A DNA stretch of 10,896 bases, from NCBI GenBank assembly GCA_030628225.1, contig DAOVRJ010000063.1, positions 1 through 10,896 on the forward strand. The letters are read 5' to 3'. This document shows positions 318-6,032 of the stretch, piece by piece (position 1 is the stretch's first letter; every line of letters begins with the position of its first letter). The notes below the pieces were generated by a model. That model searched no databases. It saw nothing but the letters and a program-made list of their open reading frames with translations, and was not told the origin of the DNA. Made by a program: the position numbers and the translations under genes. The stretch comes from Candidatus Zixiibacteriota bacterium (GTDB lineage Bacteria; SM23-81).

Positions 318-1187
318 TCATCCTCCGTCACCCTGCTTTGCCGGAGCAAATAGGGCCGCCGCCATGTAGCCAACTACCTGGCCTCGATCTCCCATCACGT
401 CGCCCGAGTTTGCGTAGTTGAGAACCTTGGCTCCCGTGGCCCCAAGTCTCTGTGCTGCCAGCATGGCCGTGATCATGGGACCGCCGCCACAGGCCTCACT
501 TTCCCTGCTCTGCAAACTTTCCTGAAGTCTCAGCGGGTCAAAGGCGTTCACGGCCTCCACGATCGCCCCGTCCATCTCCACCGCCCGATCATAGGGGTGA
601 TAATGAGATAAATCGGAGCTGGCCACGATGAGGCTTTTCTCCTCTCCCGGGGAGGAGACGATGGCCTCGGCCAAAATCTGGCACGTGGATTGATCCTGAT
701 CGCCCATAATGATGGGCACCAACTGAAATTCGCCCAGCACCCGCTGTAAAAAGGGAAGCTGTACTTCCAGGGAGTGTTCCTGGGAATGGGCATGGGGATA
801 AAAATTTATTCTCTCGCTGCGCCCCAGTATAGCCGCGGCCAACTCGACGTTCACCGGTATCACTCCCAGGGGCGTCTGATAACCTCCCCGGTCGTAGATC
901 GAGGCCCCGATGAAGGAGGCCCGATGGCTGGGTGCGATGACGATAACCGTTTTGAAGGGCTGGCCCCGGACCTGTTGGTAGGCATACGCCGCAACCTGGC
1001 CGGAATACACGTATCCGGCGTGGGGAGCGATCAAAGCTATGATCTCTCCGGGAAGCTTTTCTCCCGGGACCTTCTCCAGGAAACCGTCGATCTGACCGGT
1101 CAGGACCTGGGGATCGTCGGTGTAAAATTGACCGGCCACCACTGGTCTGCGAATCTCATCCGCAGGAATGGACTTGAGAGAATTCAT
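318..1187 (-). CDS. amrB: MEMO family protein (AmmeMemoRadiSam system protein B), stand-alone
   Basis: A 289-residue protein covering the whole MEMO domain, a fold related to class III extradiol dioxygenases. The predicted ATG has a GGGAGAGGGG ribosome binding site just upstream. Visible family motifs are APHAGY (His56), APSHRAS (His88), QEHSLE (His138), SSDLSHY (His195) and EACGGG (Cys233). His56, His88 and Cys233 correspond to the putative metal-site residues of human MEMO1 (His49, His81, Cys244). No signal peptide is seen, so it is probably cytoplasmic. It starts 41 bases after the MEMO-AMMECR1 fusion gene and is about 60% identical by eye to the MEMO part of that protein, so the two look like products of duplication. 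Biochemical function is unknown. Annotations as an extradiol ring-cleavage dioxygenase are unsupported, because the context shows no aromatic pathway. Confidence 0.93.
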   Translation of the reverse strand: MNSLKSIPADEIRRPVVAGQFYTDDPQVLTGQIDGFLEKVPGEKLPGEIIALIAPHAGYVYSGQVAAYAYQQVRGQPFKTVIVIAPSHRASFIGASIYDRGGYQTPLGVIPVNVELAAAILGRSERINFYPHAHSQEHSLEVQLPFLQRVLGEFQLVPIIMGDQDQSTCQILAEAIVSSPGEEKSLIVASSDLSHYHPYDRAVEMDGAIVEAVNAFDPLRLQESLQSRESEACGGGPMITAMLAAQRLGATGAKVLNYANSGDVMGDRGQVVGYMAAALFAPAKQGDGG

Positions 1188-1228: not shown

Positions 1229-2785
1229 CTATTCTTCGTGAAAAACCTGGGCGGTAAAAGTGTATATGTGGGTGCCCTCTTCCAGATAGGCGTCCTTGGG
1301 AAGGAGGGCCTTGTCCCGGCAGCAATGCTCTAAATATTCCCTCTTAGACCAGCCCATCTCGGTGGCCACCTGGGGCAGAAAGCAGCCGCTACGGCTACCC
1401 CGGGTGATCCATATGCCGTGTTTGCCCATCTCGATCTCATCGATGCTGGAGATCTTCTTGATGGGAGACAGAACGGAAATCTCGATCTCAATCTTATCCA
1501 GCTCTGCAGAAGAAAGAGGCGGGAAACGGTTGTCCCCAAATGCCGCCGACTGGGCCATCTGGGCCACCGTCTGGCAGAGAGGATCGTCCGTCAGGAAGCG
1601 GCCGATACAGCCGCGAAGCTCCCCGTTCTTGTGAAGGGTCACAAAGACCCCTCTCTTCTCGCTCAACCTGGGATAAGAGCTTTCTGGCGGTGTATATTCC
1701 TTCCCCTGCAGTCTTTTGGCGATGGCCTGGCGAGCTATTTTTAACAGCTCACCCTGTTCCTGGCGGTTCATCTCCTCGTTTAAGTCGTTAAAGTTCATCC
1801 CCTCTCTGGGGATTTCCCCGTTTTCCTGGTAAAAGGACACGGCGCAGTAGCCTACCACACGGTCGCGATCGCCCACAGGTACGTCGCCGGAGTTGGCATA
1901 TTTGAGAACCTTGACCGCGTCGGCGCCCAGCTCCCTGGCAGCCATCATGACCACCATCACCGCTTGGAGGCCGCAGAGAGTACAGTGCAATCCAGGAATG
2001 TTTTCTTTGAGATATCGCCTTTCATGCTCGGCCATGGCCCGAGCATCGAAGTCCTCCATGACCCTCAGCGTCTCCCGGTCCACGCGGCAGGCCTCTGCGT
2101 AGGCCGGGTAGTGGGACATGTCCGTGCTGGCAACGATAAGGACCCTTTGCTCTCCTCCGGCCACCTGGACCACGGCCTGCGCTAAGGACTCCAGCTCCTC
2201 AAAGGAACAACGCGGGCCTATCAGAATAGGCAGTATGCGAAAGTTCCCCAAAGCCCTCTGCAGAAAGGGCAGCTGTACCTCCAGGGAGTGCTCGGACACG
2301 TGGGCCTGGGGCACGTACCGAAGGCTCCCCTTCAGAGACATCAGCTCCCTGGCCATCTCCACGTTTATGGGAACGGTGCCCAGGGGGGTCTCATAGCCTC
2401 CCCTGTCGTAAACAGAGACGCCCGGGAAGCTGGCTCGATGACTGGGTCCTATGAGGATCACCGTGTCAAAGGTCTTCCCCTGAACCTGCTTATAAGCATA
2501 GGCTGCCACCTGACCCGAGAACACATAACCGGCATGTGGCGCCACCAGGGCAATGAGGCGACCGGGCAGTGATTCCCGGGGCACATTGGCCAGGAACCGA
2601 TCCACCTGATCAGCCAACATCTTAGGGCTATCCGGGTAGAAGGCGCCGGCGACTACGGGTTTGCGAACGTCCGCGGGAAACTGCGTTTCCTCACTGTTGG
2701 TTTTCTGCCGGCATTGACCCACCGCGGTCAGCAGCAGCAGCGTCCAACAGATGATGACAATTCGGTGAATTGAACCTCTTTTCAG
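1229..2785 (-). CDS. MEMO-AMMECR1 fusion protein with predicted N-terminal export signal (CTG start)
   Basis: A two-domain protein. Numbered from the GTG at 2722-2720, the MEMO domain spans residues 20-300: APHAGY His63, GPSHRA His95, SEHSLE His145, STDMSHY His204, CTLCG Cys250. A linker follows, then AMMECR1 at about 318-497 with RGVFVTLH and LRGCIGRF. The GTG start has no ribosome binding site. The frame stays open back to the lon stop codon with no ATG, GTG or TTG, but a CTG at 2785-2783 sits 5 bases after GGGAGG. From there 21 more residues are read: a basic start (K2, R3, R8), then the hydrophobic stretch IVIICWTLLLLTAV, then GQC. This looks like a Sec signal peptide, cleaved after AVG or possibly lipidated at Cys25, although Gln before that Cys is not a normal lipobox. 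The full length would be 518 residues. The gene follows lon by 45 bases. Family assignment is firm; the CTG start and export are inference, and a sequencing error or assembly change in the start codon is possible. Confidence 0.88.
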   Translation of the reverse strand: MKRGSIHRIVIICWTLLLLTAVGQCRQKTNSEETQFPADVRKPVVAGAFYPDSPKMLADQVDRFLANVPRESLPGRLIALVAPHAGYVFSGQVAAYAYKQVQGKTFDTVILIGPSHRASFPGVSVYDRGGYETPLGTVPINVEMARELMSLKGSLRYVPQAHVSEHSLEVQLPFLQRALGNFRILPILIGPRCSFEELESLAQAVVQVAGGEQRVLIVASTDMSHYPAYAEACRVDRETLRVMEDFDARAMAEHERRYLKENIPGLHCTLCGLQAVMVVMMAARELGADAVKVLKYANSGDVPVGDRDRVVGYCAVSFYQENGEIPREGMNFNDLNEEMNRQEQGELLKIARQAIAKRLQGKEYTPPESSYPRLSEKRGVFVTLHKNGELRGCIGRFLTDDPLCQTVAQMAQSAAFGDNRFPPLSSAELDKIEIEISVLSPIKKISSIDEIEMGKHGIWITRGSRSGCFLPQVATEMGWSKREYLEHCCRDKALLPKDAYLEEGTHIYTFTAQVFHEE

Positions 2786-2790
2786 CCTAT

Positions 2791-2796
2791 CCTCCC
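2791..2796 (-). promoter_or_regulatory. Ribosome binding site favouring a CTG start for the MEMO-AMMECR1 fusion
   Basis: GGGAGG on the minus strand lies 5 bases before a CTG codon (2785-2783). No similar purine-rich stretch precedes the GTG at 2722. Together with the signal-peptide-like residues encoded between the two codons, this decides the start. Confidence 0.6.
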
Positions 2797-5291: not shown

Positions 5292-6032
5292 TTACGTGCT
5301 CTTGGATAATTTCACCTTCAGAAAACCATTCTGGTAGGTGGCCTTGATTCCATGGGTGTTCACATATTCCGGAATGCCAAATTTGCGCAGGAAAGGGCCG
5401 CTGTCGATCTCCATACAATGATACGTCATTTTGCCCTCGATGGGAATTCCATCGCGCTCTCCGCTGATAGTCAGCTCATTCGATTTGATGGCGATCTCAA
5501 AATCATCCTCGTGCATGCCGGCGATCTCGCAGATGATGATCAATGAGTCGTTGGTCTCATACATATCGATGGGCGGCCGCCACCACCTCTCCAATCCTAA
5601 CTGGTCAAACAGCAGATTCATTCCCTCCTGAATACGCCGTATTTCCCTGTAAAAATTTGGGATTTCCCCGGAAATCGCCTTTTTAGACAGCCTCACCTTA
5701 AGAAAACCATTCTGATAGGTGGTCTTGATCCTCTCGGCGCTCACATACTCCGGAAGGCGAAATCTACGCTCAAAGAAACCATAGTCGATTTCGTAACAGT
5801 GATACGTGGTTTTGCTCTCGATGGGAATCTCATTGCGCACACCCCTGATAGTCAGATCGTCATCCTCAACGGCAATCTGAAAACCGGGCATTTTCATGCC
5901 GGCGATCTCGCAGACAACAATGAGAGAATTATCCGTTTCATACACATCGATGGCCGGCCACCGGTCAAACAGCAAGTCCCCTCCCTCCCGGAAACGACGC
6001 ATACTCCATTCGAAACTATTCTCATCTCCCAT
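5292..6032 (-). CDS. hsp20: Small heat shock protein (Hsp20) with two tandem alpha-crystallin domains
   Basis: A 246-residue protein, about 1.6 times the usual bacterial sHsp length because the unit is present twice. Each unit has a short arm (pattern RR-x-x-EG-x-x-LLFD), then an alpha-crystallin domain: residues 25-118 and 152-245. Both contain IDxYET, CEIAGM, a central TYHC and the family's C-terminal motif in the form TYQNGFLKV. By hand alignment about 57 of 94 domain positions match (about 60%), so this is an internal duplication rather than a fusion of distant sHsps. sHsps are ATP-independent holdases. The I-x-I/V tail motif that usually links dimers into large oligomers is not seen after either domain; the protein ends at KLSKST. 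The ATG has AAGGAGG 9 bases upstream. It lies between thi4 and lon, 73 bases from each. The family call is firm; how two linked domains assemble is unknown. Confidence 0.93.
   Translation of the reverse strand: MGDENSFEWSMRRFREGGDLLFDRWPAIDVYETDNSLIVVCEIAGMKMPGFQIAVEDDDLTIRGVRNEIPIESKTTYHCYEIDYGFFERRFRLPEYVSAERIKTTYQNGFLKVRLSKKAISGEIPNFYREIRRIQEGMNLLFDQLGLERWWRPPIDMYETNDSLIIICEIAGMHEDDFEIAIKSNELTISGERDGIPIEGKMTYHCMEIDSGPFLRKFGIPEYVNTHGIKATYQNGFLKVKLSKST
5298..5654 (-). repeat. Second copy of the intragenic hsp20 duplication
   Basis: Encodes residues 127-245 of the Hsp20 protein (arm plus alpha-crystallin domain). It is the direct-repeat partner of 5679-6014. DNA identity is patchy, for example a shared AGAAAACCATTCTG block near the end of each unit, so the duplication is not recent. 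Confidence 0.8.
5679..6014 (-). repeat. First copy of the intragenic hsp20 duplication
   Basis: Encodes residues 7-118 of the Hsp20 protein. It aligns without gaps to the second unit across the alpha-crystallin domain, and the arm before it shares the RR-x-x-EG-x-x-LLFD pattern, so the repeated unit is a nearly complete single-domain sHsp. Confidence 0.8.

Follow-up and report, generated by a model that had tools for sequence, protein, structure and literature searches.

A MEMO-AMMECR1 fusion protein with a predicted export leader, read from a CTG codon, in a Candidatus Zixiibacteriota genome

The window, that is, the whole stretch of 10,896 nucleotides that was analysed, is one entire contig (C218) of a Candidatus Zixiibacteriota genome of 2.34 Mb, which is 92% complete and distributed over 306 contigs. 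The nearest relative of this genome is candidate division Zixibacteria SM23_81 (71% identical). Three genes follow lon on the minus strand in the order MEMO-AMMECR1 fusion, single MEMO and single AMMECR1 (Table 1). Both domains of the fusion scored far above the cut-offs of their profiles, with 271 bits (cut-off 26) for MEMO (TIGR04336, PF01875) and 183 bits (cut-off 99) for AMMECR1 (TIGR04335, PF01871). The predicted structure of the fusion consists of a helix (residues 4-25), a disordered segment (26-37), the MEMO domain, a disordered linker (323-334) and the AMMECR1 domain. The three iron-site residues of the MEMO domain were invariant in 24 aligned proteins, and the corresponding residues H49, H81 and C244 are the iron ligands of human MEMO1 (PMC11081632). 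The human protein (PDB 7KQ8) shares the homologous MEMO domain with its H, H and C ligands, but it is an intracellular, single-domain protein without a leader.

Table 1: Features of the MEMO-AMMECR1 locus, numbered from the first letter of the window.
Feature	Positions	Strand	Evidence
MEMO-AMMECR1 fusion CDS, 518 aa, from CTG 2785	1229..2785	-	CTG aligned with ATG of SM23_81
Shine-Dalgarno-like GGGAGG, 5 bases upstream of CTG	2791..2796	-	TGGGAGGAT identical and equally spaced in SM23_81
Putative N-terminal export leader, codons 1-25, Cys25 last (VGQC; possible but non-canonical lipobox)	2711..2785	-	SM23_81 alignment, hydropathy against chance, model
MEMO domain, residues 41-318, iron-site residues H84, H116, C271 (human H49, H81, C244)	1832..2665	-	profile search; alignment
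AMMECR1 domain, residues 347-515	1241..1747	-	profile search
Second, single MEMO gene without leader (MNSLKSIPADEIRRP...), cytoplasmic-type paralogue	318..1187	-	
Single AMMECR1 gene, truncated by contig end	1..231	-	

The reading frame of the fusion is open from a TAA codon at 2833-2831, which is also the stop codon of lon, to a TAG codon at 1231-1229. Read from the lon stop it contains no ATG, GTG or TTG ahead of the GTG at 2722, and a CTG codon (2785-2783) lies five bases downstream of GGGAGG (2796-2791), as a first-pass annotation of this DNA had described. Translation from the CTG adds 25 codons (LKRGSIHRIVIICWTLLLLTAVGQC) which encode a basic start, a hydrophobic core and Cys25. The annotation had read a signal of 21 codons here; its basic start and hydrophobic core are present, but the length to the conserved Cys is about 25 residues. 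The comparison with a close relative that it had proposed came out in favour of a start at this codon. SM23_81 has an ATG at exactly this codon, preceded by the identical GGGAGGAT, so that TGG GAG GAT AGG CTG in the window is aligned with TGG GAG GAT GTG ATG. The SM23_81 leader (MRRHPVHQIVAICGALLVISTGGRC) has the same length to the common Cys25 and aligns without gaps up to this residue, with 10 of 24 residues identical and the remainder mostly conservatively changed.

None of 20,000 dinucleotide shuffles matched the best 11-residue hydropathy of the window leader (3.07) in combination with its basic n-region; of the open 25-codon stretches in the window, only 0.075% did. On these figures we rejected the idea that the hydrophobic leader had arisen by chance, in line with the earlier expectation that a random stretch would rarely produce such a signal. 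The n- and h-regions expected of a Sec signal peptide are clear and beyond chance. We consider it likely that the window fusion starts at CTG2785 and is exported, the export itself being inferred.

Leaders were then counted in fused genes with a readable N-terminus from 59 other genomes, a diverse sample nearly all of whose members belong to different families. All 18 fused genes encoded a leader, read from ordinary starts, and none of approximately 30 single MEMO genes did (one apparent match was a broken fragment). In a second sample of 152 further genomes a leader was found in 24 of 28 fused genes; three genes lacked it (G124, G146, G175) and one was unclear (G102). Among the named loci, the fused genes of L047 and L051 without a leader and the single MEMO gene of L057 with one depart from this pattern. 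Single MEMO genes, including the neighbouring copy in the window, are thus essentially leaderless. The named leader-bearing fusions stem from Bacteroidota, Ignavibacteria, Armatimonadota, Poribacteria, Latescibacterota, Chloroflexi, Terriglobia and others. These counts support the suggestion of the first-pass annotation that one copy of the module may be extracytoplasmic. The condition that the annotation had set for refutation, homologs with no hydrophobic N-terminus, was checked in both samples and did not refute it. Its further remark that start annotation will usually remove the signal applies only to the present CTG case, the relatives mostly starting at an ordinary ATG or GTG. A non-ATG start can nevertheless hide a signal peptide, as it does in the window fusion. 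The MEMO tree was poorly resolved and the fused forms did not fall into one clade (10 changes); we therefore do not claim that the fusion arose only once.

Two side observations were made on MEMO genes of other genomes. The first usual MEMO start of G045 is preceded in frame by a hydrophobic stretch (L010, around 1504), perhaps another hidden non-ATG start. In G061 a tandem pair of exported-type MEMO-AMMECR1 fusions was found, one of them within a very long open frame (L180:2308-8501, minus strand).

The radical-SAM partner of the module (TIGR04337) occurred in two kinds, a cytoplasmic one with an MKEAMF-like start and one with 30-60 extra N-terminal residues. The extra residues contain motifs such as SRRKFLK, DRRTFIK or SKREFIK followed by a hydrophobic stretch. 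As criterion for a Tat-type leader we used an S/T-R-R-x-F-L-K-type motif ahead of a hydrophobic stretch together with TatC in the genome. The Tat-type pattern was present in 25 of 28 leader-bearing copies versus 1 of 43 leaderless copies. A strict RR pair was found in 16 of these 25 leaders, and those from Bacteroidota mostly have KR. TatC was detected in all 11 sample genomes with a Tat-type motif; it is absent from G006 and G021, whose exported-lineage copies carry plain hydrophobic leaders without this motif. The CxxxCxxC motif was intact in every leader-bearing copy, and three of these copies that were scanned reached 366-395 bits (TIGR04337 cut-off 220). The Tat pathway exports folded, often cofactor-bearing proteins (PMC3712460), and a leader of this type therefore fits an iron-sulfur radical-SAM enzyme.

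In quick trees the leader-bearing copies grouped in a single clade (SH-aLRT 93-94) that also took in a few leaderless ones, and the leader label changed 2 times versus 23-29 times in shuffles. A leader-bearing radical-SAM gene was present in 12 of 17 fusion genomes and in 1 of 42 non-fusion genomes of the 59-genome sample (p 6e-8), and in many loci it adjoins the fusion gene. The first-pass annotation had assumed a cytoplasmic radical-SAM partner. For many relatives this is probably incorrect, since the exported fusion is accompanied by a radical-SAM lineage of its own whose leaders are Tat-like or of membrane type. Judged from these sequences, the radical-SAM enzyme of the relatives is rather likely to be exported as well, which is not shown for the window genome. 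Separately, a second, very divergent radical-SAM protein is encoded directly upstream of the exported fusion in Clostridia-like genomes (L035:4766-5902, L061:4761-5873 and L181:185-1396, all plus strand); these three proteins fall outside the TIGR04337 tree.

A membrane protein of 700-850 residues, in which twelve hydrophobic segments surround a spermidine-synthase-like domain (MFS-SpdSyn), also recurs beside the module. Its AlphaFold2 model (pLDDT 85.7, pTM 0.86) matched MFS transporters (VMAT2, Z 25.3, 336 residues) as well as spermidine synthases (Z 23.6), and its score exceeded the cut-off of NF037959, the fused MFS/spermidine synthase family. In contrast to that family, the position of the aminopropyltransferase catalytic Asp is usually occupied by Asn (9/14; Asp in 1/14), while the ribose-binding acid is kept in 13/14, and the protein goes with the exported radical-SAM lineage. 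It was found in 13/13 genomes with an exported radical-SAM enzyme versus 3/46 others (p 1e-10), and in 14/17 fusion genomes versus 2/42 non-fusion genomes of the 59-genome sample. The link with the fusion was replicated in the second sample (19/28 versus 9/124, p 4e-11). Since related genomes share ancestry, the significance conveyed by the co-occurrence p-values is at the upper end.

A radical-SAM enzyme depends on SAM and a strong reductant. We infer, without proof, that MFS-SpdSyn is a supplier or sensor of SAM or of a related compound; the narrower statement that it supplies SAM is tentative, and we would not yet rely on it. A NosR-like membrane protein (FMN_bind and Fer4_5) and a polyferredoxin are encoded beside the exported module in SM23_81 (L034:9154-10365, plus strand) and G057 (L094:4453-6000, minus strand). 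They are possible electron donors by inference, and, present in only two of the loci examined, no more than a lead. DUF362 proteins adjoin the fusion or the leader-bearing radical-SAM gene in four loci (L127:3569-4624, minus strand; L130:1786-2790, L039:7223-8671 and L097:1123-2106, plus strand). The one of L127 has a twin-arginine-like start (MKRRKFVK). Tat-DUF362 neighbours were seen in no more than four loci.

The window genome itself presents a reduced picture. Its only detected radical-SAM gene, a TIGR04337 match of 360 bits (cut-off 220) on contig C6, is of the cytoplasmic type. No copy of the exported lineage and no MFS-SpdSyn were found in this genome, and the window contig ends inside the cluster. 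A search of the genome for the NosR-like neighbour of SM23_81 returned only an RnfG-like match, beside a TatC contig. TatC and the signal peptidase II LspA (C230) are both encoded. The SM23_81 radical-SAM fragment is situated at a contig end, 2.6 kb beyond AMMECR1 and after a repeated stretch (L034:11760-11973); it belongs to the exported lineage and is leaderless, and the MFS-SpdSyn gene is located on a different contig. Because these genes were not found in the window genome and the SM23_81 fragment is leaderless, the local version may export the fusion only, or another protein may take its radical-SAM enzyme out.

The first of these two options remains a serious, if minority, possibility. 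In this lineage the fusion alone would be exported and a leaderless radical-SAM enzyme would stay in the cytoplasm, so that the fusion would either work without it on the outside or be modified prior to export. Besides the sole cytoplasmic-type enzyme of the window genome, the leaderless exported-lineage copies of SM23_81 (the fragment), G017, G038, G043, G150, G188 and G192 agree with it, some of them being encoded directly beside an exported fusion. However, these copies sit within the exported clade, and SM23_81 also possesses MFS-SpdSyn. A leaderless subunit could, moreover, ride on another Tat substrate, or its start may have been called incorrectly.

A Cys residue is located near the end of the core in most leaders of the fused family, and a strict lipobox was found in only 8 of 40 relatives. 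The VGQC lipobox of the window fusion is not canonical, with Gln at -1, and a strict lipoprotein call was therefore not made. This would suit an uncleaved signal anchor, by which the protein is membrane-bound with MEMO-AMMECR1 outside and is neither a free periplasmic protein nor a lipoprotein, and the leaders of L039, L041 and L053 have no clear cleavage site or Cys. Against such an anchor stand the Cys just past the core in most relatives and the AEA-type cleavage site of L035 and L061; it is a possibility to which we give limited credence. An ATG that became CTG by a sequencing or assembly error is unlikely, yet cannot be excluded. SM23_81 has ATG at this codon and the source assembly is fragmented into 306 contigs, but a CTG can serve as start when a good Shine-Dalgarno-like site precedes it; an error would remove the unusual start and leave the export reading unaffected. 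A cytoplasmic protein starting at GTG2722 or later, with the leader frame as a relic, is judged very unlikely because leaders are general in the fused family: the GTG is the first ordinary start codon in frame, but no supporting ribosome site was noted there, and leader length, hydropathy and Shine-Dalgarno site are kept between the window and SM23_81.

The interpretation that we prefer, with good but not full confidence and on computational grounds without biochemistry, is that the exported fusion started at CTG2785 is a component of an extracytoplasmic form of the AmmeMemoRadiSam system. Its leader would direct the fusion through the Sec pathway and would then be cleaved or be retained on the membrane, possibly via a lipid on Cys25; both fates are inferred. 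AMMECR1 and the MEMO domain with its iron site would be kept outside the cytoplasm by the disordered tether (26-37). The [4Fe-4S] radical-SAM partner of the relatives would leave by a Tat-type or membrane leader of its own, which suits a protein that has to be exported in the folded state with the cluster in place, and MEMO-AMMECR1, which needs no cluster, would use a Sec-type leader. SAM or a related molecule may be delivered by the MFS-type transporter, whose spermidine-synthase-like domain is cytoplasmic. Whether this amounts to a widespread extracytoplasmic radical-SAM system is a tentative proposal that we put forward with some reserve: a Tat-exported enzyme would act with the exported iron-site MEMO-AMMECR1, SAM would be supplied by a dedicated MFS transporter whose inactive spermidine-synthase domain senses or binds it, and electrons would come from membrane iron-sulfur proteins. 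Any reaction of the system is likewise inferred.

All three AmmeMemoRadiSam families (TIGR04335, TIGR04336, TIGR04337) are present in the window genome above their curated cut-offs, and the leader-bearing radical-SAM copies of the relatives lie far above theirs. The known system is assumed to be cytoplasmic. Here, in contrast, MEMO and AMMECR1 are fused behind a leader that predicts export, for which there is no experiment, and the radical-SAM enzyme of relatives carries a Tat-type or membrane leader. Each part belongs to a named family; neither the exported arrangement nor an exported radical-SAM enzyme was found described in the literature searched, which left out most subscription papers. 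Burroughs et al. (2019, J Biol Chem), reportedly the key paper on the gene context of MEMO, may already mention leaders. To our knowledge radical-SAM enzymes have all been studied as intracellular proteins, and a lineage acting beyond the cytoplasm would require bacteria to bring SAM and electrons to it. MEMO and AMMECR1 are of unknown function, and their human relatives are tied to disease. The pair has long been assumed to be intracellular. In the window and in most relatives, which span many phyla, the fusion has an export signal, and a matching exported-type radical-SAM enzyme usually goes with it; the complete system may thus be active beyond the cytoplasm. With its constant neighbours, such an exported form limits what MEMO and AMMECR1 could be doing and offers tractable organisms for testing them.

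Elsewhere in the window one open frame (5292-6032, minus strand) encodes two tandem Hsp20-like domains; its SM23_81 counterpart (L034:3085-3516) is a single-domain protein.
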